Below, one piece after another: positions 15,136-53,644 of a stretch of 64,000 bases of DNA. This stretch comes from Clostridia bacterium (GTDB lineage: Bacteria > Bacillota > Clostridia > Lutisporales > Lutisporaceae). The DNA lies in NCBI GenBank assembly GCA_035628995.1, contig DASPIR010000033.1, positions 186,001 to 250,000 of the forward strand. The letters are read 5' to 3'. How positions within the stretch are numbered: the stretch's first letter is position 1; the number at the start of each line of letters is the position of its first letter. Position numbers and translations under genes: made by a program. The notes below the pieces were generated by a model. That model was not told the origin of the DNA and searched no databases. It saw only the letters and a list, made by a program, of their open reading frames with translations.

Positions 15136-15519
15136 TCACCTTCTTTCGTCAACTAATAAGCCTGCGAGCTCCCACATCTTAGCAATCATATCCTGAATTT
15201 TTCTTGGTGGAAATTCTCTTATAACCTCATTAGTTATTGTATCCTTCAGCACATACATAATTGTGTGTGTCTTCTCGTGTACAGATCTCACAATGTACTT
15301 GTTGTATGTCCCCAAGGTCTTATTTGCCTGTTCCACAGCATTGTCCAGCATCTCATTGTCGTTGACATTTTCCAAATTCACATCCGTACTTGCCTCATTT
15401 GAGGCTTTTCTGACTATCAAATCAAACTCTGAGCCGTTTTTCTGCTGAATCTGCCTTTCACCTTGGTTATTGCTGTTCTGAATGTTCATATTATTAGAAA
15501 CCACTGAGTCAATCTTCAT
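15136..15519 (-). CDS. flaG: FlaG family flagellar protein
   Basis: 127 residues, homologue of B. subtilis YvyC. It is linked to filament length or assembly, and its exact role is not settled. The N-terminal third is disordered and Asn/Gln-rich. The conserved C-terminal core includes LKDTITNEVIREFPPRKIQD. ATG 15519 (MKIDSVV) is chosen because AAGGAGGGA sits just before it; a longer frame to 15552 lacks a ribosome binding site. It is translationally close to fliD. Confidence 0.9.
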   Translation of the reverse strand: MKIDSVVSNNMNIQNSNNQGERQIQQKNGSEFDLIVRKASNEASTDVNLENVNDNEMLDNAVEQANKTLGTYNKYIVRSVHEKTHTIMYVLKDTITNEVIREFPPRKIQDMIAKMWELAGLLVDERR

Positions 15520-15669: not shown

Positions 15670-16848
15670 CTAAAGCATTTTAATGAAATTGTCTATATAT
15701 TCAACAGTTAACTGCTTTAGATTGTTTCTCTGTTCCACATCATAGCAATCATTTCGTTTCTTCTCTAAAATATCGACGATATACTTCGCATTTAATTGCT
15801 CCACATTGATAAAGTTCTCTTTTTTACCAATTAATTCACCAAACAGTTTTAATTTTTCATTCCAGACCAGTCCAATTGCTGGAATATCTAAAGAATACGC
15901 AGTAATACAAGCATGTAACCGCGCTCCTATGATAGCTTCAAATCCTGACATTGTATCTGCGAAATCCTTTGAATTTTGTGGACATGGAACATATTTACTA
16001 CTATTAATCCCTAAACTTTCCAGTAATCTCATTCCAAAATTGTAATCAGAAGTAAGACCATTAGAAAAAAGCTTCCATTTAATCTTTCGTTTCTCAAGTT
16101 CCTTTATTATCTCTTGATATAAATTCATTACCTCGTCTTCAGTGTAATTAATTCCGTATTTTACGAAAATATCATTTCTGATTACTCCCAAGCCTATAAT
16201 ATTACTATCTTTCCTATTAATCTGATAACATTCAGGAGTATAAAACGCAGGATCACCAACCAATTCTGTAATAATTAATTTATTTGCTATATACCGTTCA
16301 TTAAGTAATGATAAATTATCTCTTGCGGTAATAACCTTTACACACGGTCTGTTGATTGCATTTTTAAGTTTTTGGCAACGCAAGTCAGTTGAGCTATAGC
16401 CTTCTATCCCCATTGCATTCATCATAACCGGGATACCCTTTTCCTGTGATAGCTTTGTAATCATATCTACTAAATAATTCAATTCCTGGGCCCGGTATTT
16501 TATAAACCCGCCACCTGAAAAAACCACAGCATCTGCCGTTTTAAGCTGCTGATCATAATATCTGTACAGCTTTATTTTCCACGAAAAATACTGTATGTAA
16601 TATAATAACTTTTCCGAAGGCCATACACTTGTAAGAAAATGCTCTAGTTTTCGAATTAAATTAAAACATTTGAATCTAAAGGGTAAATGCACCCTACAGT
16701 AGGAATCGTATGGACTCACATCTACAAAGTATGACTCAACTTTGTTTTCGCCCTTCAGTTGAATCAGATAATTCGTAGTTTCTGCGATTATCCGGTCTCC
16801 TATATTATTAAAATTATTTAAACCAACTAAAGCAATTCTTTTTTTCAT
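15670..16848 (-). CDS. Polysaccharide pyruvyl transferase family protein
   Basis: 392 residues of the PF04230 type. Members transfer pyruvate from phosphoenolpyruvate to a sugar as a ketal, giving a negative charge. Visible marks are the N-terminal GLNNFNNIGDRII, the central FSGGGF loop, and the C-terminal GARLHACITAYS that ends the second Rossmann domain. It is the last gene of the modification island, 22 bases after the FkbM gene. Soluble and presumably cytoplasmic. A related function such as a nucleotide-sugar-dependent transferase is possible. Confidence 0.85.
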   Translation of the reverse strand: MKKRIALVGLNNFNNIGDRIIAETTNYLIQLKGENKVESYFVDVSPYDSYCRVHLPFRFKCFNLIRKLEHFLTSVWPSEKLLYYIQYFSWKIKLYRYYDQQLKTADAVVFSGGGFIKYRAQELNYLVDMITKLSQEKGIPVMMNAMGIEGYSSTDLRCQKLKNAINRPCVKVITARDNLSLLNERYIANKLIITELVGDPAFYTPECYQINRKDSNIIGLGVIRNDIFVKYGINYTEDEVMNLYQEIIKELEKRKIKWKLFSNGLTSDYNFGMRLLESLGINSSKYVPCPQNSKDFADTMSGFEAIIGARLHACITAYSLDIPAIGLVWNEKLKLFGELIGKKENFINVEQLNAKYIVDILEKKRNDCYDVEQRNNLKQLTVEYIDNFIKML

Positions 16849-16869
16849 TATTATACCTGCCGCAATTTT

Positions 16870-18033
16870 CTATTTATTATAATCAGCTGTTGCATAACAT
16901 ACTGTTTCATACCAACAGTAATGATGATGTTTTAGCTTGAAACGATACTCTGGAACGAGCTTTCGCAAATATCTCGGAATTTCCCACAAATCCTCTATTT
17001 TATGATAAATAGACAATGCACAAACAGGCTTGTTTTCCTTTATAATTTTTTGTGCTCCTATCAATGCTTCCAATTCACTGCCTTCAATGTCCATTTTGAT
17101 AAACGTTCCTTCTTTGCCAGCCTGATGATCATCCATTGAAATTATTTCGCCCTCATAAGCTCCGTTCTCAACAACCATAGACTCGGTTTCGGACGAATCA
17201 TATGTGATTTTTTTATTTTCACTGCCTACTCCATAGTTATAGGCTTCAACTTTACTTGATATATCTTGTGGTAATGCATCTATGTATTTTTTAAGAATGT
17301 TATAATTGTTTGCATCTAATTCATAGCAAATATATTTCTTAAAATCAGAATATCCTAAACCTTCTACTAATCTTTTTAGTGAACTGCCTCTATATGCCCC
17401 ACAGTCAATAATTACTTCATCTTTTCGAACATTACCTGCATTATCTCCAAAAAATTGATTGCCCTGATAAAGATCTGCAAAACTGAACTCTTTCCATTCT
17501 TCTGTCCTTGCTACTAAAGAACGAACTTTATAGTATAGTATCTTGTGTGACTCTTCATCCGGGAAAAAGTCAAACGCCTCTGATAAATTATTCCAAAAGG
17601 TTGTCTTATCCAACTTTTCAGCCATAAGCGTGTATTTTAAATTAACATACTCTTCTCGCCTTACAATATTAGTCAAACCTGCGTTTACAAGTTGTCGATA
17701 TATAACATTTGAGTTTGAAATTCCAGCTGTAACAAAGCATAGTACACTGTATTTCATCTCATATAATTCTTGGAGCGATATACATTTTATACCGTCAACT
17801 ATTTCTTTGCCCCATTTTTCCGGATTACTATCACAGAAAAAGTCCACTTTAACTCCCAGTGGTAATATAGACTTATATGTATCATTTCCTACTTGTCCTG
17901 CTCCATAAAAGCAAATTTTATTATTTCCGCTTAAATTCCAGTCAGACCAGGCTTTAATATTATTCTCACGTATCTTTTTTATATCTGAATATCTTTCTTC
18001 TACTAATTCATAGGTTTTCGCTTTGTAATCCAT
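16870..18033 (-). CDS. FkbM-type methyltransferase with N-terminal Rossmann-like domain
   Basis: 387 residues. Residues about 35-125 form a nucleotide-binding-like domain beginning KICFYGAGQVGNDTY. Residues about 205-350 are a SAM-dependent FkbM methyltransferase with VIIDCGAYRGSSLKR and IKMDIEGSELEAL. Such proteins O-methylate sugars in surface glycans. The two-domain layout recurs in bacterial flagellar and capsular glycosylation loci. ATG 18033 follows GAGGGAG. It is 11 bases downstream of the licD gene, so within one operon. Confidence 0.88.
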   Translation of the reverse strand: MDYKAKTYELVEERYSDIKKIRENNIKAWSDWNLSGNNKICFYGAGQVGNDTYKSILPLGVKVDFFCDSNPEKWGKEIVDGIKCISLQELYEMKYSVLCFVTAGISNSNVIYRQLVNAGLTNIVRREEYVNLKYTLMAEKLDKTTFWNNLSEAFDFFPDEESHKILYYKVRSLVARTEEWKEFSFADLYQGNQFFGDNAGNVRKDEVIIDCGAYRGSSLKRLVEGLGYSDFKKYICYELDANNYNILKKYIDALPQDISSKVEAYNYGVGSENKKITYDSSETESMVVENGAYEGEIISMDDHQAGKEGTFIKMDIEGSELEALIGAQKIIKENKPVCALSIYHKIEDLWEIPRYLRKLVPEYRFKLKHHHYCWYETVCYATADYNK

Positions 18034-18044
18034 ATTTTCTCCCT

Positions 18045-18983
18045 CTATTCATTGTATTGTTTTAGCATCAACTCTTCAAAATCATCCAAATCTGGTACTA
18101 CCAGCTTTAACTTTGAACAAGGTATATGACTTACTCTTTTTTCTTTTGGCGGCAATTCCATATAATTGGTAAATGCAGTCTTTAAGACTAAGTCATATGT
18201 TTTAAGCGCCATAAAATATCTTCCTTCAAATTCCAAGTCCGTCGATGAATAATCCCATGGCAATTCGCCATTCTTAAACTTCCATGCCATATCTATATCA
18301 GCAACCTGGTATCCCCATCTTGAACTACTGTTTTTTGAAACTTCATGCGCCATATTGCGGATCAACTGAGTTGGGTTTTCACCAGCCCAGCTTATAACCC
18401 AATCGCGATAGCGGAAAACCGCATTGCGCGGGATCCATGAAAGAATCGTATACCATCTGCGCATAAACCAATTCTCATGCAGTTTTTTGCCTACCTTTGA
18501 CCATAATATCTTTCTGATGGCAAAGCATGAGAAGCAGTGCAGAGGCCTAAGAGTTGGTGAATCCGGAACGGTATCGCTGCATATGATGTCAACAAAGATA
18601 CCTGTTTTTTGATTCAGGTGTTCATGCCCTGCTCGTTGAAAAACCGTATCCTTCCTTAAAACCCGTGCATAATTCCAGCGGTAATTGGGATCTGTTCTCC
18701 ACTCCTGTAAAAAAAACCTGGATTCATCCAGTTCCTTTTTACAAACCTCGAAGAAATTGCTATATGCAGACCTGCTCATAGATATGTCAACATCCGGGTC
18801 CCATGGAATGAATCCCTTATGCCTCACTGCCCCTAACAACGTTCCGCCTATAAGTCTGTAATTTATATGATGCTTTCTACATATGCTATCGATTTCAACC
18901 AATATTTCCAATTGTATCAACTGAATCTGTCTTCTTGTTCCGGAACCAATTTCAATTACTTTTTCTATTCTTTTCTCTTTCAT
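18045..18983 (-). CDS. LicD family phosphotransferase (paralogue 1)
   Basis: 312 residues. LicD proteins transfer phosphocholine or other phospho-alcohol groups from CDP-activated donors to glycans. The nucleotidyltransferase core is present: GGTLLGAVRHKGFIPWDPDV, where the D-x-D pair is the metal site, and a C-terminal SHIPC block. It is clearly paralogous to 23453-24313 over its whole length. Start ATG 18983 has GCGGGG just before it; an in-frame GTG at 18995 is possible. The donor is probably made by the TarI-like enzyme in the same cluster. Confidence 0.9.
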   Translation of the reverse strand: MKEKRIEKVIEIGSGTRRQIQLIQLEILVEIDSICRKHHINYRLIGGTLLGAVRHKGFIPWDPDVDISMSRSAYSNFFEVCKKELDESRFFLQEWRTDPNYRWNYARVLRKDTVFQRAGHEHLNQKTGIFVDIICSDTVPDSPTLRPLHCFSCFAIRKILWSKVGKKLHENWFMRRWYTILSWIPRNAVFRYRDWVISWAGENPTQLIRNMAHEVSKNSSSRWGYQVADIDMAWKFKNGELPWDYSSTDLEFEGRYFMALKTYDLVLKTAFTNYMELPPKEKRVSHIPCSKLKLVVPDLDDFEELMLKQYNE

Positions 18984-18997
18984 ATTACCCCGCACAC

Positions 18998-20062
18998 CTA
19001 CTTGTTATCGGTATATTTTATATATTCATCATCTATAACGCTCATGTCTACAGCATTGTCTTCCATGCTCCATGCGATATCCTTCCGAATTACCCTCGCA
19101 GGGTTTCCTGCTATAATGCAATTGTTAGGATAAGTTTTTTTAACAAAACTGCCTGCTCCAACAACACTCCCATTACCTATATCAGCACCATACATGATTG
19201 TCGCTCTTGCTCCCACCCATACATGATCACCAAGAATTACTTTTCTATCATAGTTCGATTCAGAATCTGAATTTATATTTTTGCCGGTATGAATATCAAA
19301 AATCGAATGTCCATCATTTGCTCTTATAAAAACATCCCGTGACCATAAACAATCTTTCCCTATCTTGATTTCCGTGTGTAGTCCCGAAACTATCAAATAC
19401 CCCATTCCAAGCCAATTATTCCGTTCTATCAGTATCTTTGATTCCTTTCCGCAACGTAGAATGCCTCCTCTGGAGAAAATAGTATTTTCGTCAATAACGC
19501 AATTGGACTTCGACATACAGTACCAATCTGAATCCTTTTGAATAGTCACATTTTTACCAATTGTCAAACTTGAATCATCATACATATTTATAGTAACATT
19601 AGATGCCGCATTAAAATTTTCGTCTACTGTCAATAAACTATTGTATCCATAAAAAAGAACCTTGGCTTTGCCGATATCACCAATAATTTTATTTCCATAC
19701 CCGTCTCTATATTCTGAGACATTTTCAACTGCTGTAGGAGTATAAGAAAGATATGCAAAATCAGCACTTTTTTCATATCCCCATTCCACTAACTGCTGAT
19801 AAATCTCATGAAAGTACCTCAACACACATATCACATATATCCTGTCCTTTTGTCCCTTCAGTGAATTAATGGATTGAACCCTTTCATCCCTTATAACATC
19901 AGCCTTTGTATCTACATAATATGCCACACTAAGTCCATACTCTGCTTTCAGCTTATCCTCCAAAGTTTTGGAACGATTGCATTTCCCCCAAATTACCAAT
20001 TGGCGTCCATTGTAATTTTGTAAGGTCAATGAAATTGTCTCCATGATAATGTCAGCTTTCAT
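18998..20062 (-). CDS. Left-handed beta-helix acyltransferase-like protein
   Basis: 354 residues. The N-terminal ~115 residues are Rossmann-like (RQLVIWGKCNRSKTLEDKL). The rest carries hexapeptide repeats of a left-handed beta-helix, ending GNGSVVGAGSFVKKTYPNNC and IIAGNPARVIR, the signature of xenobiotic/maltose-type O-acetyltransferases. A probable catalytic His lies in NDGHSIFDI. Likely O- or N-acetylates a sugar of the surface glycan. ATG 20062 follows GAGGGGGA. It is two bases from the next reading frame and part of the same operon. Confidence 0.88.
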   Translation of the reverse strand: MKADIIMETISLTLQNYNGRQLVIWGKCNRSKTLEDKLKAEYGLSVAYYVDTKADVIRDERVQSINSLKGQKDRIYVICVLRYFHEIYQQLVEWGYEKSADFAYLSYTPTAVENVSEYRDGYGNKIIGDIGKAKVLFYGYNSLLTVDENFNAASNVTINMYDDSSLTIGKNVTIQKDSDWYCMSKSNCVIDENTIFSRGGILRCGKESKILIERNNWLGMGYLIVSGLHTEIKIGKDCLWSRDVFIRANDGHSIFDIHTGKNINSDSESNYDRKVILGDHVWVGARATIMYGADIGNGSVVGAGSFVKKTYPNNCIIAGNPARVIRKDIAWSMEDNAVDMSVIDDEYIKYTDNK

Positions 20063-20074
20063 TTATATCCCCCT

Positions 20075-21577
20075 CTATTCCTGGCATGTTTTGTCTGCTT
20101 TATCTAATTGCGACATTATATACTTATGAATCTTTTCACCGCAAGTTCCGTCGCTATTCGCAACAGAACGTCTTACATCTTCTTCCCTCAATGCTTTATT
20201 AGGATCTTCACCCTTCTTAAGCATTGTAAGAAAATTGCCTATCCTAACTCCGTCACCTAAAAAATAACAGGAAAAATGATCAAATAAGCAGATTCTCTCT
20301 TCTCTCATAGAGCTCTTTAGATTCAAGGCAAGAACCGGCTTTCCCGTAACCATATACTGTCTCAATAAAGAACTTGTGTCACTTATCAATCCATCTGAAT
20401 AAGATATTGCCGCATATGCACTGCCCAATTTATCTATGACAGCATTTTCACTATTAGCAATATCATTGGTTAGTTTCTTGAATCTTTCCATATACTGAGG
20501 TCTCATAGATTTGATAGTTGCCTCCAGCAATGGATGTGGCCGCCATATTAACCCAATTCCTTCGGTATATATTATCTGCCGTACGAATCTTTCGAATCTT
20601 TCCATATAAGTTTCTAATACGAGCATGGATCCAATACTAGTATTATATAATACTATCTTTTTACCGCTTAGCTTTTCTTTCCATTCATCAGGGACCTCTG
20701 GTGGATTTTTCATTGCATTAATAACTGCATCAATTTTCGGCGAACCCAACGCAGCTATTTTTTTTGCCGGCATCTCCAAAGATACCATTATTTGTTTCAT
20801 TAATTCTGACTGTACAATAACTCTGTTACTACTTACTACACCACTAATAATATGTTTTGTTCCGATGTCATCAACATTTTTGTAGGCACCTGCAATGAAA
20901 TATGGTACATATACCAGCATATTTGTATATTTTATAAGTTCCGACGAATAAAACGCCGGATGTACCGAAGTAACATAGTTATATTGATCATAAGGATTAT
21001 GAAAATATATTATATCCGGCTTACAGACACTAAGATTATAATCAGTATATTTCGTTATTGGAACGTAGCCTGGCAGCTGGTCACCCTCATAGTACATTTC
21101 ACCCAGGCGACGATCTTCTGTCCTGTCATAATATGGAATAGGCATAACATAACATTCACATTCACTATCTTCTTTTGCAGTCATCCATATACTTTCCATA
21201 GAATCCCACATTGAAGCTTTGTATGGCAGAAAAACTATTTCTTTCTTGCAGCTGATTGCATTTATACCTGCTTCGATGCTATTATGATAGTTCTTAAGAA
21301 TTTCAATGCTTCCAGCTTGATTTTCTCCCATCATCATACTATTATTTACTTGGAATAAAGTCTCACAATAATTTCCAATGCATCCTATAATTTCAAGCCC
21401 TTCTCCTTCGGATTCTTCAATTGAATTCCCGATATGAATAGCACTTTCCTGACAGGCCGCCAAGATATCCATTGCCTGTTCAATATTATTAGCGTCAATA
21501 TTTATACTTAATTCTTCATGTGCTTGTCCGATAAGTTCTGCTAGTTCTAATAGCGCTATTTTCTTATATTTTTTCAT
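20075..21577 (-). CDS. CDP-glycerol glycerophosphotransferase-like protein
   Basis: 500 residues. The C-terminal half resembles the PF04464 family, which transfers glycerol-phosphate or ribitol-phosphate in wall teichoic acids: WRPHPLLEA, then SDGLISDTSSLLRQYMVTGK with the donor-binding residues. The N-terminal ~140 residues are helical and not recognised. No membrane segment is visible. A 43-codon fragment of a second such gene survives at 24332-24463. Next to a TarI-like cytidylyltransferase, a polyol-phosphate transfer role is a reasonable inference. Confidence 0.8.
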   Translation of the reverse strand: MKKYKKIALLELAELIGQAHEELSINIDANNIEQAMDILAACQESAIHIGNSIEESEGEGLEIIGCIGNYCETLFQVNNSMMMGENQAGSIEILKNYHNSIEAGINAISCKKEIVFLPYKASMWDSMESIWMTAKEDSECECYVMPIPYYDRTEDRRLGEMYYEGDQLPGYVPITKYTDYNLSVCKPDIIYFHNPYDQYNYVTSVHPAFYSSELIKYTNMLVYVPYFIAGAYKNVDDIGTKHIISGVVSSNRVIVQSELMKQIMVSLEMPAKKIAALGSPKIDAVINAMKNPPEVPDEWKEKLSGKKIVLYNTSIGSMLVLETYMERFERFVRQIIYTEGIGLIWRPHPLLEATIKSMRPQYMERFKKLTNDIANSENAVIDKLGSAYAAISYSDGLISDTSSLLRQYMVTGKPVLALNLKSSMREERICLFDHFSCYFLGDGVRIGNFLTMLKKGEDPNKALREEDVRRSVANSDGTCGEKIHKYIMSQLDKADKTCQE

Positions 21578-21595
21578 AGCCTGTCATTCCTCTTT

Positions 21596-22702
21596 TCATT
21601 TACCAAGGCAATTATTCTGCTGATATTGCTTTTTCATACTATCAATCGTGCGTCTGTACATTTCTTTTATACCTAGCTCGGCTTTCCAACCTAATTTCTG
21701 CAGCTTAGCCGTATCCAGATTGATTTTCACAGTCGGGTTATATCCGAACTTTTGTATATCCTCTGTAATATCGTATACTACTTTAATTCCGGCCTCAGGG
21801 AATTCCTTTGATAACATTTCTGCCATATCTCTGATTGATATGACCGTATCCATATTTGCAACATTATATGCCTGACCTTTTTCACCTTTAAGCAGAATAA
21901 ATATCAACGCTCTTAAAGCATCCCTGGTATAGCAGTAGCTTCTTACCGTATCTCCTGATGTATGAAGAACGATATTTTTCTTTTCTATTACGCTTCTGGC
22001 AAATTGTGCAAAAACTCTGCCATCATCGTATTTAACACCTGCACCGAAGGTCTGTGTTAATCTTGCAATTTTAACAGGCACACCATACTCCTTTTCGTAG
22101 GAGATACACAAGCACTCCGCTATCCTCTTTCCTTCAGAATAACTGCTCCGTGAATCTAATATATCAATATATCCGTAATTTTTTTCGGTAACATATTTAA
22201 GCGATGGATCTGTGACACCATAAACCTCCAAGGAGGATAAATAGACAAACGCTTTAACGTGCTTATCTTTTGCCAATTCAAGCAAATTTCTGGTACCTTC
22301 GAAAACAGTCTGTATAGTTTCAACAGGATAGGTTACAAAATCTTTTGAGCTTGTAACGCTTGCAGTATGAATAATATAATCTATATCTTCAGTTATTTTA
22401 ACAGGTTTTGTTACATCGCCCAAAATCAGTTTTAAATCAGGATGCTCCAACATATTTCCAAATATAGCTTTTGCTTTTTCCACACTTCTAGCCAAAGCTA
22501 TTATTTTTATATTTGTATTGTGCAATCTATTGCAACAGGATAATGCTTTCACAAGCTGAGAACCAATAAGACCTGTTGCACCCGTGACTAATACTTTTCT
22601 ATTATTAAGCTCATTAAAAGGAATATTACTATTTGCAATTAATTCCAAATCGTCTTGTAATATTTCATCATTTGGACTTTCAATACACTCATAAGTCAGC
22701 AT
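21596..22702 (-). CDS. NAD-dependent epimerase/dehydratase (extended SDR)
   Basis: 368 residues. The Rossmann motif VLVTGATGLIGSQLVKAL is near residue 35. The catalytic Ser and Tyr lie in YLSSLEVYG and SSYSEGKR, so the YxxxK motif is the form Y-S-E-G-K. Acts on a nucleotide-activated sugar or polyol; the substrate is not readable from sequence. ATG 22702 lies nine bases after the stop of the cytidylyltransferase gene, so the pair is coupled and probably makes or modifies one CDP-activated precursor. Confidence 0.88.
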   Translation of the reverse strand: MLTYECIESPNDEILQDDLELIANSNIPFNELNNRKVLVTGATGLIGSQLVKALSCCNRLHNTNIKIIALARSVEKAKAIFGNMLEHPDLKLILGDVTKPVKITEDIDYIIHTASVTSSKDFVTYPVETIQTVFEGTRNLLELAKDKHVKAFVYLSSLEVYGVTDPSLKYVTEKNYGYIDILDSRSSYSEGKRIAECLCISYEKEYGVPVKIARLTQTFGAGVKYDDGRVFAQFARSVIEKKNIVLHTSGDTVRSYCYTRDALRALIFILLKGEKGQAYNVANMDTVISIRDMAEMLSKEFPEAGIKVVYDITEDIQKFGYNPTVKINLDTAKLQKLGWKAELGIKEMYRRTIDSMKKQYQQNNCLGK

Positions 22703-22710
22703 TTTCCACC

Positions 22711-23436
22711 TCAAAACCCAAATATCTGAGAGTTTTCTCTTGCTTCATAAATTGCTCTGAAAATATAGTAATCCATTGGAGTGGTTATTTTGATGTTTTC
22801 GGGAGGACCTTCAATGGTGTGCAAATTATAGCCATAGTACATCATAAGCGATGCAGAATCAATCATCCCTACCACATTATCTTCATTAGCGCGTTTATGC
22901 TCTGTCATAATATCTTTAAGATAAAAGCTCTGTGGGGCTTTTGCAATTCTAGCCACATTCCTGCATGCAATTTCACTGATTTTTTCATTGCCATCTATTG
23001 ATACTATGGTTTCCTTTGCTTGAGATACTGTTATTGCAGAGCCGTATTTTCTGACCGATTCTATATTTTCTGTAATAAGTTGCTCAGATATAAGCGGCCT
23101 AACTCCGTCATGAATTAAAACAATATCATCCTCCGGATTATCACAATCATTGTAAATTGCTTTTAGCCCGTTAAATATAGATTCCTGACCTGTTTGTCCT
23201 CCTTCAACGATCCATTTTACCTTTGTAATATTAAATAACTTCAAGTTTTCTTTCAAAGCATTAACCCATTCAGCGATACATACAACAGCTATATTGTCTA
23301 TTTCATCATGATCCTCAAAATATTCAATTGTATGTATGATTATTGGCTTTCCATGCAAATCTAAAAACTGCTTTGGTTTTGACTTGCTGTTCATTCGTTT
23401 TCCAGTTCCGCCTGCAAAAATTAATGCTGTTACCAC
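22711..23436 (-). CDS. IspD/TarI-family cytidylyltransferase
   Basis: 241 residues. Uses CTP to activate a polyol phosphate. The nucleotide-binding start ALIFAGGTGKRM and SKPKQFLDLHGKPIIIHTIE are conserved, as is DGVRPLISEQLI. IspD (isoprenoid) and TarI (ribitol-5-phosphate, teichoic acid) share this fold. LicD and CDP-glycerol-transferase-like neighbours favour a TarI-like CDP-polyol role. GTG 23436 is chosen because GAGGAG is eight bases upstream; a GTG nine bases earlier overlaps that site. Substrate remains an inference. Confidence 0.85.
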   Translation of the reverse strand: MVTALIFAGGTGKRMNSKSKPKQFLDLHGKPIIIHTIEYFEDHDEIDNIAVVCIAEWVNALKENLKLFNITKVKWIVEGGQTGQESIFNGLKAIYNDCDNPEDDIVLIHDGVRPLISEQLITENIESVRKYGSAITVSQAKETIVSIDGNEKISEIACRNVARIAKAPQSFYLKDIMTEHKRANEDNVVGMIDSASLMMYYGYNLHTIEGPPENIKITTPMDYYIFRAIYEARENSQIFGF

Positions 23437-23452
23437 AATACTCACTCCTCAC

Positions 23453-24313
23453 CTAAAATATTGGATCTGTAAGCTTATAGCTTGAACAAGGTATATGGCT
23501 TGTCCTTCCTTCCGGAGGGGGCGGTGTCATATAGTCCCCATAAATTGACTTTAAATACCAATCGTAATCCTTAAAGGCAAAAAACTTATGTCCTTCAAAT
23601 TCATACTCAACAAGATCATCAAACAGTTTTCTGGGAAAACCATATATATGCCCCTTAGGATGAGGTGAACACATATGGCGAACCAACTCAGATATTGAAT
23701 TTTTATTACAGCATGCAGCAACCATATCTCTGATTTTAAACATAAAATCTCTGGGAATTAGTGATAGAAGTCCATACCATTTGCGTTTCAAAAAAGACGG
23801 GTGCACTTTTCTTCCTGCCTTAGACCAAAGAATCTTCCGGATACAAAAGCACGAAATACAGTGAACTCTTCTGAAAATAAATGAATCCGGGACACTATCC
23901 ATTGTAAAAATATCAATGAATATACCATTTTTAGCCCCAATATGTTCATGACCTGCACGGATATATTCCGTATTTTTACGTAATATACGTGCATATCCCC
24001 AACGGTAATACGGGTCTGTGCGATAATCCTGCAAAAGAAATCTTTCTGAATCAAGTTCAGTTTTACATAATTCAAAAAAACGATTGTATTCATCTCTCAT
24101 AATTACAATGTCCGCATCAGGATCCCATGGAATGAATCCCTTATGCCTGACAGCGCCTAAAAAAGTTCCCCCATCAATAGAATACTTAATGTCATGCTTT
24201 CTACATATCCTATCGAATTCAATTAACATTTCTAAAATTATCATTTGCATTTTTCTAAGGTCTTGAGATGGCATTTCTATGCTTTTTACTGTTTTATACA
24301 TTTTATAGCGCAC
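23453..24313 (-). CDS. LicD family phosphotransferase (paralogue 2)
   Basis: 286 residues with the LicD core GGTFLGAVRHKGFIPWDPDA and the C-terminal SHIPCSSYKL. It is very similar to paralogue 1 throughout, including RTDPYYRWGYAR and the cysteine-rich HCISCFCIRKILWSKAG. The first lacks some of these cysteines. GTG 24313 has AGGTGG at about seven bases. It starts 19 bases after the remnant gene and stops eight bases before the cytidylyltransferase frame. Two LicD enzymes may serve two acceptor positions. Confidence 0.9.
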   Translation of the reverse strand: MRYKMYKTVKSIEMPSQDLRKMQMIILEMLIEFDRICRKHDIKYSIDGGTFLGAVRHKGFIPWDPDADIVIMRDEYNRFFELCKTELDSERFLLQDYRTDPYYRWGYARILRKNTEYIRAGHEHIGAKNGIFIDIFTMDSVPDSFIFRRVHCISCFCIRKILWSKAGRKVHPSFLKRKWYGLLSLIPRDFMFKIRDMVAACCNKNSISELVRHMCSPHPKGHIYGFPRKLFDDLVEYEFEGHKFFAFKDYDWYLKSIYGDYMTPPPPEGRTSHIPCSSYKLTDPIF

Positions 24314-24331
24314 TACTTCACCACCTTTTCT

Positions 24332-24463
24332 TTACCTCAAAACCTCACCTATGATATACTGATATATCTTTTGTCCACAACTTCCATCTGCATTAACGAG
24401 GGATTTTTTATAACTCTCCACACATTCTTCACGAAGTTGATCTATTAAGCATTTTTCAGCCAT
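24332..24463 (-). pseudogene. 3' remnant of a CDP-glycerol-transferase-like gene
   Basis: Forty-four codons from ATG 24463 to TAA 24332, in a different frame from the glycosyltransferase whose last 19 bases it overlaps. The encoded tail (LREECVESYKKSLVNADGSC, then GQKIYQYI) lines up with the C-terminus of the intact 500-residue protein (LREEDVRRSVANSDGTCGEK, then IHKYI). Only this tail remains. It looks like the scar of a deletion or recombination between duplicated island genes. Confidence 0.7.
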
Positions 24464-26331
24464 ATAGAGAGTGGGAATTTTTTCTTCATTGTACTCTTTA
24501 AGTCCTCCATTTTACCTGACTCTCCCATTTTTTCACAAGCATCATATATTTTCTCATATATATAGTACTCATCTTTGAATCCTAATGCAGCAGAATAGCA
24601 TTCCAGAGCATCAGCAGCCTTATTCCGAATTGAATAGGCATCTCCCAGTATGATATAATTCTCCATGCAGTTAGGATATTTTTCTATATTCATGGTTAGA
24701 AGATCCATAGCTGTATCAGTATACCCATTTGACAACAGCATTGATGCCAGCTTGACTTGAGTCTCTATTGAACACTGCAGTAAAACTGCAGAAATATATT
24801 CAAACTGCTCAAATTCATCGATATGGAGCAAATACTCGCCAATTTTAAGAAGCAACTTTTCTACTTCCATAGTCAGGCTGAATTCCCCAATGGTCTCATT
24901 TAGCAATATTTCACTGATAGATTTCCATTCCTTATTGCTGAAATTTGAACTGGCTTTAAGCTTATCCAAAAGCAGTCTGTCTTTACTGAGCAAGCATAGC
25001 ACAGCTGCATCCAGGATATTGAGCTGAGGTATAACATCAATTTTCTCCCATTCTTCAAGAGATTTGTCAAACTGCTTATCCAAAATAAATGCAACAGCTC
25101 TTACGTCGTATAAATGTTCATCTTGGAACGCAAACCCGAATTTGTTCATCAGTGGGTATCTTAACTCATATAATGAGTAAATCAGTGCTTTTAATTCTTC
25201 TACAGTATCTATAATATAAATCTTACTTAGATGCTCTTTTACCTGATCAGGTTGTATGCCTGCGCACTGCATAAGCTTCAGATATTTAGAAAGCGCCGGT
25301 GTAAAGCTTTTTTTTAGTAGTACTGCTTTGTATGCTTCATCAAATGCATCTCCAATTTTCCCCATCTTATCATATACTATTGCAAGCTGATAATTAGCCA
25401 TATAGCTTCCCATACCTTCAACAGTTACAATATCAACCTTTTCACCTATCTCCAAGCATTTCTTGAACTCTATCTCAGCATCCTTTAGATACCCGCTATT
25501 TAGAAATAAAACTCCCAAAGGATAATGCAAATCTGCATATTGAGGAAAAACCTTTATAGCATCCAATAAAAGCGTGATAGCTTCCTCTGTTCTATCTAGT
25601 AGACATAGACATTCCCCTGTACGAACTATCAAACTCTTCAGATATGCTTGACCTTCACTTAGTGGATACGACTTCTTAAACATATCCAAGGCTTTATCAT
25701 AGTTTTCCTCACTCACATAGACAAGACCCATGTTGTAATAGCTGTATCCCGTGGGGTTATCCTCCAATTCTTTAACCATGATGTCATAGTTTCTCTTTTT
25801 CTTGCCTTTATCTGCAATGACCTCGGGTAAGTAACCCACATGGTTAATCACTATGTTGGATTCTGCTCCTATATAGTTAGTACCTCCGTCATACGCGGAT
25901 AAATGCTCATGAAGCTTGCCACTGTATCTAAGTCCGATTCCAGATTTGAAAAGCCTGATATTCTGATTAAAGACAATCCGTCCCTCACTTTGATAATTTT
26001 TTATTAGCAGCTTATAATAATCCCTTTTCTGCACTAAATCATTTTCAAGACTGGCACTATCATCAAGATATTCATCTGCATCCAATACAAGTATATATTC
26101 TGATTTTGCTTCGCTGATTGAATAATTGCGAGCAGCTGCAAAATCATTTATCCACTCGAAGCGGCTTATAATAGCACCATACTTTTGGGCAATTTCAATA
26201 GTTCTATCTGTAGAGCCTGTATCAGCTATAATAATTTCATCAACTTTTCCCTGCACACTTTTTAGACATCTATCTAGATATTTCTCCTCATTTTTAACTA
26301 TCATACATAACGATATAGTATTCTTTTGCAT
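24445..26331 (-). CDS. Family 2 glycosyltransferase with TPR repeats (probable flagellin glycosyltransferase)
   Basis: 628 residues. Residues 1-~230 are a GT-A domain: ISLCMIVKNEEKYLDRCLKS, ADTGSTDRT, and the metal-binding VLDADEYLD. The remaining ~400 residues are helical TPR-like repeats (YYNMGLVYVSEENYDKALDM and others). It is the first gene after hag, the position held by the flagellin glycosyltransferase in Clostridioides difficile, so it probably attaches the first sugar. ATG 26331 follows AAGGAG by eight bases. The TPR part may dock the flagellin-FliS complex, as in other TPR-linked protein glycosyltransferases. Confidence 0.88.
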   Translation of the reverse strand: MQKNTISLCMIVKNEEKYLDRCLKSVQGKVDEIIIADTGSTDRTIEIAQKYGAIISRFEWINDFAAARNYSISEAKSEYILVLDADEYLDDSASLENDLVQKRDYYKLLIKNYQSEGRIVFNQNIRLFKSGIGLRYSGKLHEHLSAYDGGTNYIGAESNIVINHVGYLPEVIADKGKKKRNYDIMVKELEDNPTGYSYYNMGLVYVSEENYDKALDMFKKSYPLSEGQAYLKSLIVRTGECLCLLDRTEEAITLLLDAIKVFPQYADLHYPLGVLFLNSGYLKDAEIEFKKCLEIGEKVDIVTVEGMGSYMANYQLAIVYDKMGKIGDAFDEAYKAVLLKKSFTPALSKYLKLMQCAGIQPDQVKEHLSKIYIIDTVEELKALIYSLYELRYPLMNKFGFAFQDEHLYDVRAVAFILDKQFDKSLEEWEKIDVIPQLNILDAAVLCLLSKDRLLLDKLKASSNFSNKEWKSISEILLNETIGEFSLTMEVEKLLLKIGEYLLHIDEFEQFEYISAVLLQCSIETQVKLASMLLSNGYTDTAMDLLTMNIEKYPNCMENYIILGDAYSIRNKAADALECYSAALGFKDEYYIYEKIYDACEKMGESGKMEDLKSTMKKKFPLSIWLKNA

Positions 26332-26414
26332 TAGCAAGTCTCCTTAGCAATAAAAAATAATTATATATCTAATATATCGACTTATTACGACAGGTTCTTT
26401 AGAAGTGCGAGTGT

Positions 26415-26451
26415 CAAAAAATAAAGAAGACCCTGGAAAATCCAAGGTCTT
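26415..26451 (-). terminator. Terminator of hag
   Basis: Eleven-base stem AAGACCTTGGA/TCCAGGGTCTT (one mismatch) on the minus strand, followed by CTTTATTTTTTG. It lies 11 bases after the flagellin stop. The island genes downstream may depend on partial read-through. Confidence 0.85.
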
Positions 26452-26462
26452 TTGAGAATTAA

Positions 26463-27224
26463 CTATCTCAGAAGCTGCAGCACTCCCTGTGGAGCCTGGT
26501 TAGCTTGAGCAAGCATTGCCTGAGCAGCCTGCTGGAGTATGTTGTTCTTTGTGAACTTCATCATTTCATCTGCCATGTCTACATCACGAATACGTGATTC
26601 AGATGCTGTAAGGTTTTCTCTAGTAGCGCTCATGTTGTTGTACATATGTTCAAGTCTGTTCTGGTCTGCTCCATATGTAGCCCTAATTGTGTTTACTGCA
26701 CCAATATTGGCATCTATGGTAGCCACCAGGTCTGCTGCACCAATTACAGGAGCACTTATTCCAGCGATTACTAATGCATCACCGCCATCTTGACCCATAG
26801 CGATAGTAGCACCAGTAGTCATATCTACACCATTGAATTTAGTATTTGTAAAAATGTTATTTGCAGCAGATGCAAGTGCTGTTGCTTCAAGAAGAATATT
26901 AGCCTTATCATTTCCTTCATAAGTGCCGTTTAAGTTCTGAACAGCCAGTTCCTTCATTCTTCCGAGCATATCAGATACTTCATTTAATGCACCTTCAAAA
27001 GTCTGTACTAAAGATATACCATCCTGAGCATTTCTCTGAGCCTGACCAAGACCTCTGATCTGGCCTCTCATTTTTTCTGATATGGACAAACCTGCTGCAT
27101 CATCAGCAGCTCTGTTGATTCTGAGACCTGATGAAAGTTTCTCCATTGACTTTGATGAATTCAAGCTGTTTGCACCCAACTGTCGATGTGTGTTCATGGC
27201 CATAATGTTATTGTTTATTCTCAT
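26463..27224 (-). CDS. hag: Flagellin
   Basis: Structural subunit of the filament. 253 residues, a short flagellin with conserved D0/D1 N-terminus (MRINNNIMAMNTHRQLGANS, SSGLRINRAADDAAGLSISE) and C-terminus (ending PQGVLQLLR), and almost no outer domain. ATG 27224 follows AAGGAGG; a longer open frame to 27281 runs through the leader and is not used. A sigma-28 promoter, a CsrA-type leader hairpin and a downstream modification island surround it. The Ser/Thr-containing centre (about 125-190) is where glycans would be expected. Confidence 0.97.
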   Translation of the reverse strand: MRINNNIMAMNTHRQLGANSLNSSKSMEKLSSGLRINRAADDAAGLSISEKMRGQIRGLGQAQRNAQDGISLVQTFEGALNEVSDMLGRMKELAVQNLNGTYEGNDKANILLEATALASAANNIFTNTKFNGVDMTTGATIAMGQDGGDALVIAGISAPVIGAADLVATIDANIGAVNTIRATYGADQNRLEHMYNNMSATRENLTASESRIRDVDMADEMMKFTKNNILQQAAQAMLAQANQAPQGVLQLLR

Positions 27225-38932: not shown

Positions 38933-39017
38933 TGGTGGAGAGAGATGGATTCGAACCATCGAAGTCTGAGACAACAGATTTACAGTCTGCCCCCTTTGGC
39001 CACTCGGGAACCTCTCC
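38933..39017 (-). tRNA. tRNA-Tyr (anticodon GTA)
   Basis: 85 bases including an encoded CCA. Seven-base acceptor stem beginning GGAGAGG, a long class II variable arm, GTA in the loop CTGTAAA, and the T-loop GGTTCGAATCC. Last gene of a five-tRNA operon. Confidence 0.95.
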
Positions 39018-39021
39018 ATGA

Positions 39022-39097
39022 TGGAGCTGGTGATGGGACTCGAACCCGCGACCTGCTGATTACAAGTCAGCTGCTCTACCAATTGAGCTACACCAGC
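39022..39097 (-). tRNA. tRNA-Thr (anticodon TGT)
   Basis: 76 bases with encoded CCA. Acceptor GCTGGTG, D-arm TAGCTCAATTGGTAGAGC, anticodon loop CTTGTAA, T-loop GGGTTCGAGTCC. Only four bases separate it from tRNA-Tyr. Confidence 0.96.
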
Positions 39098-39231
39098 TTA
39101 TGTTTAATTTTTAATTATCAAAAAGGAATGTAAGTCTTTCTTTCTCCGTAGCCTCCAAGTTACTCCGCAAATGCTACGTATTACATTAAGGAATTTTGGT
39201 CTTTGTTTCTCCACTACGTTACGAAAAAAGT

Positions 39232-39307
39232 TGGTGGGGACAATAGGGCTCGAACCTATGACCCTCTGCTTGTAAGGCAGATGCTCTCCCAGCTGAGCTA
39301 TGCCCCC
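39232..39307 (-). tRNA. tRNA-Val (anticodon TAC)
   Basis: 76 bases with encoded CCA. Acceptor GGGGGCA, D-arm TAGCTCAGCTGGGAGAGC, anticodon loop CTTACAA, T-loop GGTTCGAGCC. The 134-bp spacer before tRNA-Thr holds no recognisable gene. Confidence 0.96.
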
Positions 39308-39322
39308 ATGTAATAATAGTAA

Positions 39323-39397
39323 TGGTGACCCATAGGGGATTCGAACCCCTGTAGCCGCCGTGAAAGGGCGGTGTCTTAACCGCTTGACCAATGGGCC
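39323..39397 (-). tRNA. tRNA-Glu (anticodon TTC)
   Basis: 75 bases with encoded CCA. Acceptor GGCCCAT, anticodon stem CCGCC/GGCGG around CTTTCAC, T-loop GGTTCGAATCC. Confidence 0.96.
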
Positions 39398-39416
39398 GTA
39401 TTTAATTTTTTTATGA

Positions 39417-39492
39417 TGGTCGGGGTGACAGGACTTGAACCTGCGGCCCCATGGTCCCAAACCACGTACGCTACCAACTGCGCTACACCCCG
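39417..39492 (-). tRNA. tRNA-Pro (anticodon TGG)
   Basis: 76 bases with encoded CCA. Acceptor CGGGGTG, anticodon loop TTTGGGA, T-loop GGTTCAAGTCC. First gene of the operon; the promoter ends 13 bases upstream. Confidence 0.96.
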
Positions 39493-51287: not shown

Positions 51288-52436
51288 CTACTCCGGTCGA
51301 AAATCCTCCGGTCTGTTCTCTTCAACCCCAAAATGATAAAGCAGGCTATCAATTATCCTGGCTGAAGCATGACCATCACCATATGGATTTACTGCATTGG
51401 CCATTTTGAGATATTCCTTTTCATCAGTAAGCAGAGTCTCAGTAAGCTCAAGAATATTCTTTTCATCTACCCCTGCGAGCTTTAGGGTACCAAACTCTAT
51501 TGCTTCCGGTCTTTCAGTCTCAGTCCTGAGTACCAGCACCGGCTTACCCAAAGAAGGAGCCTCCTCCTGAAGTCCTCCAGAGTCTGTAAGCACCATAAAG
51601 CACCTAGCCATAAGATTGTGCATTTCATCCACATCCAGAGGGTCTAAAAGATGTACTCCCGGCATATTGTCCAATATTCCAAAAACAGTCTCTCTGACAG
51701 CAGGATTCTTATGCACTGCATATACTATCTCCACATCTTCATGGGTTTCTGCTATAGTCTTAAGAGCTCTGCAAATGTTCTCCAAAGGCTCGCCCAGGTT
51801 CTCCCGCCTGTGGGCAGTCACCATTAGAATCCTCTTTTTGTCATAATCAAGCTTCTTTAGTTCTTCTGTATAAAACTCAAAGCTTTTGTTTACTGTAGTT
51901 TTTAATGCGTCTATGGCAGTGTTGCCTGTTACATATATGCTTTCTTCCTTGACACCCTCCCTCAAAAGATTCTCCTTTGATGTAGCTGTGGGAGAGAAGT
52001 GTATATCCGCCATTGCTCCGGTAAGCTTCCTATTCATTTCCTCCGGGTAAGGAGAATATTTGTTGAAGGTCCTTAAGCCCGCTTCCACATGACCTATCTG
52101 AACCTTATTGTAAAAAGCGGCTAATGAACCTACAAAGGTGGTGGTCGTGTCCCCATGAACAAGTATGATGTCAGGCTGCAGCTCCTTTATTACCTTTTCA
52201 AGTCCAGCCAGAGCATTTACGGTTATGTCTGTAAGAGTCTGCCTGTCCTTCATTATGTCGAGGTCGAAGTCCGGCTGTATATCGAATATATCCAATACTT
52301 GATCAAGCATATCCCTATGCTGTGCAGTAACACATACATATGACTCAAACCGGCTGTCTGCCTTCAACGCTTTTACCAGAGGCGCCATTTTTATAGCCTC
52401 CGGTCTTGTCCCGAATATAGATAGTACTTTTATCAA
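51288..52436 (-). CDS. wecB: UDP-N-acetylglucosamine 2-epimerase (non-hydrolysing)
   Basis: Interconverts UDP-GlcNAc and UDP-ManNAc for teichoic acids or other glycans. 382 residues. IFGTRPEAIKMAPLVKAL at the N-terminus, VHGDTTTTFVGSLAAF, GHVEAGLRTFNKYSPYPEEM and SGGLQEEAPSLGKPVLVLR are diagnostic. TTG 52436 with AAGGAG eight bases upstream. It lies next to a TagO-like transferase, consistent with cell-wall polymer synthesis; MnaA is the B. subtilis name. Confidence 0.95.
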   Translation of the reverse strand: MIKVLSIFGTRPEAIKMAPLVKALKADSRFESYVCVTAQHRDMLDQVLDIFDIQPDFDLDIMKDRQTLTDITVNALAGLEKVIKELQPDIILVHGDTTTTFVGSLAAFYNKVQIGHVEAGLRTFNKYSPYPEEMNRKLTGAMADIHFSPTATSKENLLREGVKEESIYVTGNTAIDALKTTVNKSFEFYTEELKKLDYDKKRILMVTAHRRENLGEPLENICRALKTIAETHEDVEIVYAVHKNPAVRETVFGILDNMPGVHLLDPLDVDEMHNLMARCFMVLTDSGGLQEEAPSLGKPVLVLRTETERPEAIEFGTLKLAGVDEKNILELTETLLTDEKEYLKMANAVNPYGDGHASARIIDSLLYHFGVEENRPEDFRPE

Positions 52437-52588: not shown

Positions 52589-53644
52589 TTACAAATCTGC
52601 TTTATTGCTTCCCTGATCCACCTCTATTAGACCTAAGTGCTTTGCCCCCATAGAGGCCAAGAGAAAAACCGCGAATACCAGTACAAATGCAACCTTCAAC
52701 GATACCTCAACCAATGCAACCGCACTGAAGCCTAGTACTGCACTTATGCTGTACAGTGTCAGAACAGCCTGCTTTTGACTCATACCTGCTTCCAGAAGCT
52801 TATGATGCAAATGTCCCTTGTCCGCTTGCATCATTGACTTTCCGCTTAAAGTTCTTCTTACCATTGCGAATAAGGTGTCGAATATCGGCAGTCCAATTGC
52901 AAATATTGGTATCAGAATAGATAGGGCTGCTGCACTTTTAAGTGCACCTGTAACAGAAATAACCGAGAGCATGAAACCTAGAAACAATGCTCCTGAATCC
53001 CCCATGAATATCTTTGCCGGGTTGAAGTTATATGGCAGAAAACCAATGGTTGAAGCTGCCAATATCGCTGCCAGGAAAGCTGCCAGCTCTTGCCCCGTAC
53101 TCATAGCAGCAATCAAAAGGGTAATTGCCGAAATAGCAGAAATCCCTGCTGCCAAACCATCAAGTCCGTCTACCAGATTAATAGCATTTGTTATCCCTAC
53201 TATCCATATCAAAGTCAAAGGATATGACCATACGCCAAACCTGATAAGCGGAGAATCCGGGAACATAAAAAACAGTGGATTGGTAACAGCATTTATCCTT
53301 ACTCCGCTGTGTATAACTATAATTGCTGCAATGATCTGAACCAGTAATTTAAACTTTGCTGAAAGCGGTTTTATATCATCAAAGAATCCCAAGGTTACGA
53401 TTATTGAAGCCCCGATTAAAATACCAAACATCTCAGGCTTGAAGCCGTCTTTATAAAAAAGTGCCGCTATAAAGCCAAGAAAAATTGCCAGGCCTCCCAA
53501 TCTCGGGGTAGGAAGCTTATGCACTCTCCTGTTATCTTTAGGTACATCTATAGCGCCTACAAGCTTAGCCAGTCTGATCATCAGCGGTGTAGCCGCAAAA
53601 GCGACAGACGCAGCGATTATAAGTGCTATAATGTTACTTGTCAT
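52589..53644 (-). CDS. Undecaprenyl-phosphate GlcNAc-1-phosphate transferase (TagO/WecA type)
   Basis: 351 residues, about ten membrane segments. Starts wall teichoic acid or related polymer synthesis on the lipid carrier. Catalytic marks: GFFDDIKPLSAKFKLLVQI, then NAINLVDGLDGLAAGISAIS with the D-x-x-D, KIFMGDSGALFLGF, and DKGHLHHKLLEAGMSQKQAV. ATG 53644 follows GGGAGTG. It lies beside wecB. In this context it probably serves wall polymers, but could also feed other GlcNAc-linked glycans. Confidence 0.92.
   Translation of the reverse strand: MTSNIIALIIAASVAFAATPLMIRLAKLVGAIDVPKDNRRVHKLPTPRLGGLAIFLGFIAALFYKDGFKPEMFGILIGASIIVTLGFFDDIKPLSAKFKLLVQIIAAIIVIHSGVRINAVTNPLFFMFPDSPLIRFGVWSYPLTLIWIVGITNAINLVDGLDGLAAGISAISAITLLIAAMSTGQELAAFLAAILAASTIGFLPYNFNPAKIFMGDSGALFLGFMLSVISVTGALKSAAALSILIPIFAIGLPIFDTLFAMVRRTLSGKSMMQADKGHLHHKLLEAGMSQKQAVLTLYSISAVLGFSAVALVEVSLKVAFVLVFAVFLLASMGAKHLGLIEVDQGSNKADL

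Follow-up and report, generated by a model that had tools for sequence, protein, structure and literature searches.

What is made by the nine genes that lie between the flagellin gene hag and flaG in a Clostridia bacterium of the family Lutisporaceae? The genes form an island on contig DASPIR010000033.1 (assembly GCA_035628995.1), within the 64,000-nucleotide stretch (positions 186,001 to 250,000, hereafter the window) that we analysed. A preliminary description of this DNA had proposed that flagellin here carries a glycan with a phosphodiester-linked polyol. This is the best-supported reading of the island, which probably directs the cytosolic synthesis of an alditol-phosphate decoration on flagellin before the protein is exported, although the attachment to flagellin is something that we infer. 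The proposal is strengthened by a signature for cytidine diphosphate (CDP)-alditol in a short-chain dehydrogenase/reductase (SDR), by FKRP-type LicD proteins, by the finding that the genome holds no LicD or PF04464 gene beyond those of the island, and by the occurrence of a similar group of genes next to hag in two further taxa.

All nine genes are open and lie on the minus strand between positions 15670 and 26337 (Table 1), in the transcription order GT2-TPR, LicD1, IspD, SDR, PF04464-like, hexapeptide acyltransferase, LicD2, FkbM and pyruvyl transferase, in line with the layout first described, and the Pfam families agree with the gene identities given then. The spacing of a few bases holds from LicD1 to the pyruvyl transferase gene, where the seven intergenic gaps measure 7, 8, 18, 12, 14, 11 and 21 bp, but not for the wider gaps between hag and GT2-TPR (125 bp), GT2-TPR and LicD1 (143 bp), and the pyruvyl transferase gene and flaG (150 bp). 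The G+C content of the island is 0.33–0.40 (0.33–0.36 for all genes except LicD2), compared with 0.41 in the flgL-flgN region. Terminator-like sites exceed expectation in the region (14 found, 5.5 expected). The Sigma-D promoter pattern was uninformative, with 61 matches against about 70 by chance, and a Sigma-70 scan of the region gave no more than the chance level.

Table 1. The island and its borders (window coordinates).
Feature	Position	Strand	Basis
hag, flagellin, 253 residues, proposed acceptor	26463..27224	-	PF00669/PF00700; single copy in own genome
Terminator-like hairpin, 11 pairs, directly 3′ of hag	26427..26451	-	hairpin scan
GT2-TPR, proposed flagellin O-glycosyltransferase for the first sugar	24445..26337	-	PF00535 + TPR; GmaR nearest structure
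LicD1, proposed CDP-alditol:glycan alditol-phosphotransferase	23453..24301	-	PF04991; FKRP profile match
IspD/TarI-like cytidylyltransferase, GTG start, proposed CDP-ketose/polyol maker	22711..23445	-	PF01128; NCBIfam ribitol-5-phosphate cytidylyltransferase
SDR, proposed CDP-ketose reductase giving CDP-alditol	21596..22702	-	PF01370; nearest PDB 8v4h/8v4g = HS5.17
PF04464-like protein (P0005), CD0244-like candidate phosphoalcohol transferase, N-terminal helical part of 100 residues	20075..21577	-	PF04464
Hexapeptide-repeat O-acyltransferase	18998..20062	-	PF00132/PF14602
LicD2, proposed second alditol-phosphotransferase, distinct LicD clade	18045..18983	-	PF04991; alignment
FkbM methyltransferase	16870..18033	-	PF05050, TIGR01444
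Pyruvyl transferase, proposed to place a pyruvate ketal on sugar or alditol	15670..16848	-	PF04230
flaG, far island border, followed by fliD and fliS	15136..15519	-	ORF list; FlaG/FliD/FliS relatives in other genomes

The chemistry is suggested by two adjacent genes. The IspD-like protein scores 187.7 against the NCBIfam model for ribitol-5-phosphate cytidylyltransferase (cut-off 166), and its nearest structures in the PDB are those of TarI (4jis, 3f1c, 6xhp); the housekeeping ispD is located elsewhere in the genome, adjoining ispF. For the SDR, by far the nearest structure is that of HS5.17 from C. jejuni HS:5, an NADPH-dependent reductase that converts CDP-6-fructose to CDP-6-D-glucitol (PMC10918830). 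When the 18 residues listed in that paper as surrounding the ligand are compared, 14 are identical in the SDR, at an overall identity of 34%. Those retained include Arg208, Gln196 and Glu140, which contact the glucitol, Arg164, Arg233, Thr227 and Tyr295, which hold the CDP, and the catalytic Tyr and Lys (YxxxK), whilst N34, M139, D212 and F226 (backbone contact only) have changed. From residue 12 onwards, the N-terminal extension of the SDR can also be aligned to its counterpart in HS5.17. Adjacent PF01128 and PF01370 genes are found likewise in HS5.18/HS5.17 and Mnp1/Mnp2, and such pairs have been named as makers of CDP-glucitol and CDP-mannitol (PMC10918830). The island pair should thus make a CDP-alditol, the choice of alditol being the more conjectural point. 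Since most of the CDP-holding residues are retained, reduction probably occurs after cytidylylation, as in HS:5 and unlike TarIJ and Bcs1. The genome holds a second SDR (G000:C23:66175-67104, locus L213), 31–34% identical to the CDP-ketose reductase, whose neighbours include neither IspD nor LicD; relatives in the family also carry one.

Both LicD1 and LicD2 keep the motif GG(T)xLGAVRHKGFIPWDxDxD in the alignment, so that the PF04991 signature of LicD, FKTN and FKRP, with its site GG(T/S)xLGAxRHxxxIPWDxDxD, is present. In a search with the LicD profile the sole significant PDB match was FKRP (6.5e-08, with the PWDxDxD motif), the human CDP-ribitol transferase whose structure has been solved with CDP-ribitol. 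FKRP was also the top Foldseek match of the predicted LicD1 structure (E 4e-04), but at a weak template modelling (TM) score of about 0.4, so the assignment leans mainly on the motif and the profile match. LicD2 has a relative of 62% identity in a metagenome-assembled genome (MAG; locus L045). Neither LicD nor PF04464 genes were found outside the island in its own genome.

The third candidate transferase, P0005, passes the Pfam gathering cut-off for PF04464 (29.6 bits against 22.1, with some homologues below it), and to that extent its earlier assignment stands, but it is a divergent relative that lacks the WHG motif of TagF. Its predicted structure (predicted local distance difference test score 92) has a GT-B fold, with Z scores of 24.5 to UDP-GlcNAc 2-epimerase, 23.0 to TagF and 20.6 to TarL. 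Across the family alignment His193 and His348 never vary, and the latter lines up with the (K/R)xHP histidine found in canonical PF04464 members. On the model, P0005 is a divergent relative with a TagF/epimerase fold, and the same double likeness, to TagF and to 2-epimerase, has been described for CD0244 of C. difficile (PMC10714395). In two loci, L004 (G046) and L035:8294-10336 (G354), LicD is fused with a PF04464-like part in a single protein, which supports the idea that the two act together.

The remaining clue is the gene nearest hag. The closest solved structure to the catalytic domain of GT2-TPR is GmaR (E 9.4e-33, residues 7–193), the flagellin N-acetylglucosamine (GlcNAc) transferase of Listeria, and GT2-TPR is accordingly predicted to be a GmaR-like flagellin O-glycosyltransferase with GlcNAc as its probable first sugar. 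The pathway could then run as follows, in an order of steps that we infer. GT2-TPR would bind flagellin and place the first sugar, probably GlcNAc, on Ser or Thr. The IspD-like enzyme would join CTP to a ketose phosphate, either fructose-6-phosphate or a pentulose-5-phosphate, and the SDR would reduce the CDP-ketose with NADPH to the CDP-alditol, as HS5.18/HS5.17 and Mnp1/Mnp2 do. LicD1, LicD2 and the PF04464-like protein would attach alditol phosphate, or some other phosphoalcohol, to the sugar and possibly to one another, with release of CMP, and the acyl-, methyl- and pyruvyl transferases would complete the glycan. Two LicD enzymes would suit a tandem unit like that of alpha-dystroglycan, where the ribitol phosphates are arranged in tandem.

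The most parsimonious acceptor for this pathway, if not a proven one, is cytosolic flagellin, given the GmaR-type enzyme, the adjacency to hag in three families, the lack of other PF04464 or LicD genes in the genome and the lack of any multi-pass membrane protein among the nine island proteins. The island consequently has no priming transferase, flippase, polymerase or exporter. These features bear on a different explanation, namely that the genes make a teichoic-acid-like polymer of wall or capsule and merely happen to lie at a flagellar site prone to take up foreign DNA, with flagellin unmodified or carrying only the GT2-TPR sugar. Flagellar hypervariable regions of Clostridium do gather cell-envelope genes (PMC13317340), the IspD-SDR-LicD triplet and the PF04464-like family are mostly found outside flagellar loci, and the window holds genes for an MnaA-like UDP-GlcNAc 2-epimerase (51288-52436) and a WecA/TagO-like protein (52589-53644) some 25 kb off, which likely serve another kind of envelope polymer. 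We nevertheless consider a wall or capsule polymer improbable: besides the missing membrane proteins, the genome has no other PF04464 gene for a TagB/TagF chain, the one glycosyltransferase that Pfam recognises in the island is GmaR-like, and the core set lies beside hag in two other families.

The preliminary description had suggested looking for the same gene set in other clostridia, and a similar set does lie beside hag in Clostridium chromiireducens and also in Sporosarcina. In a class-wide search with the SDR, 11 loci from other genomes carried IspD, and LicD was present in all 11 (in the stretch read); IspD, SDR and LicD are a unit. The cassettes closest to the island are flagellar and directly follow hag. 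That of C. chromiireducens (L043) holds Hag, GT2-TPR, a PF04464-like protein (48% identity), IspD (68%), SDR (56%), a glycosyltransferase, an acyltransferase (33%), TagF, a pyruvyl-methyltransferase fusion, WcbI and LicD1 (65%); that of Sporosarcina sp. ACRSM (L044) holds Hag, GT2-TPR, a PF04464-like protein (48%), pyruvyl transferase (61%), LicD1 (71%), IspD (72%) and SDR (62%). The identity of GT2-TPR to its counterparts is only 29 and 32%, respectively, far below that of IspD, SDR and LicD1; the donor-side genes travel as a block, and the flagellin-reading enzyme does not. Partial sets of P0005-like, IspD, SDR and LicD genes occur in flagellar loci of four further genomes (G215, G296, G282, G346), and the SDR gene adjoins hag in two (G227, G312). 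In a quick gene tree of the PF04464-like family, with many weak forks, the window protein groups with that of C. chromiireducens (95), and flagellar context shows some clustering (14 changes, with no more than that in 4 of 500 shuffles). The fusion in L043 (17189-19120), of a pyruvyl transferase with a methyltransferase domain, echoes the neighbouring FkbM and pyruvyl transferase genes of the window.

Several observations weigh against a flagellin decoration. The IspD-SDR-LicD triplets turn up most often in loci that lack flagellar genes, and amongst 80 loci with PF04464-like homologues, from gut Lachnospiraceae, a flagellar marker was seen in 14 and none in 66 (in the stretch fetched), so the chemistry is not specific to flagellin. 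The 13 kb of the MAG locus L045 carry the core set and no flagellar genes, and the envelope genes that Clostridium flagellar hypervariable regions also gather can be unrelated (PMC13317340). The WH[GA] motif, which in TagF (WHG) belongs to the N-terminal domain, is absent from P0005, whose fold resembles UDP-GlcNAc 2-epimerase no less than it does TagF.

The PF04464-like family is large, with at least 576 confirmed members among at least 597 pattern matches, mostly from gut Lachnospiraceae. It was rejected as a marker of flagellin loci alone, since most homologues lack flagellar neighbours. Just under half of the homologues have an extra repeat region of 400 residues before the last 40 residues (L024:9723-12260, L026:9971-12496, L028:7365-9938 and many of L049-L121), which looks like a beta-propeller and has no Pfam match. 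The repeat-bearing genes often adjoin a TagD-like cytidylyltransferase fused to a GFO/IDH/MocA oxidoreductase. Elsewhere in the window, five clustered tRNA genes (Tyr, Thr, Val, Glu, Pro) lie on the minus strand at 38933-39492, and the open reading frame of 159 residues listed there is very likely not a gene.

The junction of hag and flaG, taken as conserved in the preliminary description, is in fact variable. In the same family it is empty in one relative (G006, L159), is filled by a Kelch/cohesin protein in another (G009, L153) and holds a GT2-TPR/FkbM/nucleotide-sugar island in a third (G012, L155), whilst in the same genus a Maf protein (PF01973) follows four hag copies (G005, L156), and Maf, NeuB and a cytidylyltransferase follow hag (G002, L161). 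The protein in L153 (9319-10857) has Kelch repeats and a cohesin-like domain. PF01973 has no match in the island's own genome, although both same-genus loci match, and hag has a single match there. The variation at the junction fits the hypervariability reported for flagellar loci of Clostridium between flgB and fliD (PMC13317340): the site is of a known kind and the unusual part is its content. The island is best explained as one allele of a variable flagellin-glycosylation slot. A more ambitious version, that it is a mobile, self-contained cassette building a short pyruvylated oligo(alditol phosphate) on flagellin, in parallel to the ribitol phosphate of dystroglycan made by ISPD, FKTN and FKRP, and has spread horizontally among Clostridia and Bacilli, is a tentative idea to which we give somewhat less than even weight.

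Two other explanations keep flagellin as the acceptor of at least part of the products. The glycan might, as in type A, consist of a sugar joined by phosphate to an amino acid or other non-polyol alcohol, methylated by FkbM, with IspD and the SDR making an ordinary nucleotide sugar. In C. difficile type A a glycosyltransferase, a cytidylyltransferase, the PF04464-like CD0244 and a methyltransferase lie beside fliC (PMC10714395); the island likewise has a glycosyltransferase, a PF04464 protein (likened to CD0244 by description) and a cytidylyltransferase beside the flagellin gene, and the P0005 family is often paired with TagD-type cytidylyltransferases in place of IspD, so the donor varies. 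This explanation is nonetheless quite unlikely, as the SDR retains the CDP-alditol pocket, type A has nothing that corresponds to the two LicD genes, and a CD0241-like gene of the HAD family (phosphoserine phosphatase type) is missing from the island, that family having no Pfam match among the ten proteins scanned. Alternatively, one operon might serve two functions, with GT2-TPR, the PF04464-like protein, FkbM and the acyltransferase acting on flagellin, and IspD, SDR, LicD and pyruvyl transferase making a small secreted or lipid-linked alditol phosphate. The 143 bp between GT2-TPR and the rest, and the much lower conservation of GT2-TPR than of IspD, SDR and LicD across cassettes, would fit, but both groups are interleaved in one run with gaps of 7–21 bp and occur together after hag in L043 and L044, and we regard such a division as very improbable.

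Polyol phosphates are known on wall polymers, capsule polymers and one human glycoprotein. If an alditol-phosphate decoration of flagellin is correct, the island would offer a genetically simple bacterial system in which IspD and LicD (FKTN/FKRP-family) enzymes act on a protein glycan; it would add to the few phosphodiester flagellin glycans known and point to a role for the large, unnamed PF04464-like family. It predicts a charged modification of flagellin, visible by mass spectrometry in named cultured strains. In the literature searched, which took in few subscription papers, we came across no account of flagellin bearing an alditol-phosphate glycan, of LicD taking part in flagellin modification, or of a link, as meant here, between flagellin and either CDP-ribitol or ribitol phosphate.

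Compared with known systems, the island resembles the O-GlcNAc system of Listeria in the GT2 catalytic domain of the first enzyme. The GmaR pathway ends at GlcNAc, whereas here eight further genes follow GT2-TPR. Flagellin glycosylation with Maf and nonulosonic acid is not a match, as the genome has no Maf. Wall teichoic acid synthesis shares a TarI-type cytidylyltransferase and a TagF-like fold, but the island has no export or polymerisation genes, its PF04464-like protein lacks WHG and the genome holds no other PF04464 gene. The PF01128/PF01370 pair, with its contacts to CDP and alditol, is common to C. jejuni HS:5 (HS5.18/HS5.17, CDP-6-D-glucitol) and S. pneumoniae 35A (Mnp1/Mnp2, CDP-mannitol); those pairs serve capsular polysaccharides, whilst the pair described here lies in a flagellin island. 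For the pyruvyl transferase there is a precedent in a mannitol teichoic acid with a pyruvic acid acetal, cited in PMC10918830. The preliminary description knew of no pathway with this gene set and left unmentioned the phosphodiester flagellin glycans with a PF04464 transferase: those of C. difficile type A (CD0240-CD0244; PMC10714395) and the b-type of P. aeruginosa PAO1 (PA1088-PA1091), a phosphodiester with N,N-dimethylthreonine (PMC11833859). In both the glycan is a sugar-phosphodiester-X on Ser/Thr of flagellin, and both share with the island a glycosyltransferase by the flagellin gene, a nucleotidyltransferase (CTP proposed), a PF04464-like transferase or domain and a methyltransferase (PMC10714395, PMC11833859). 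Type A differs in having CD0241 (phosphoserine-phosphatase-like) and CD0242, where the island has IspD, a CDP-ketose reductase and two LicD genes; the island also adds pyruvyl and acyl transferases, and X should be an alditol rather than a methylated threonine. The new element would thus be an alditol phosphate as the linked group, introduced via IspD, SDR and LicD. In the human pathway outlined in PMC4873967, FKTN and FKRP attach ribitol phosphate to dystroglycan from CDP-ribitol made by ISPD, and an IspD-family enzyme for the CDP-polyol, two LicD-family transferases and a phospho-polyol on a protein O-glycan would be common to both systems. The likeness appears to be one of function, the island being bacterial and cytosolic, with flagellin as its presumed acceptor and with additional PF04464-like, acyl-, methyl- and pyruvyl-transferring enzymes.

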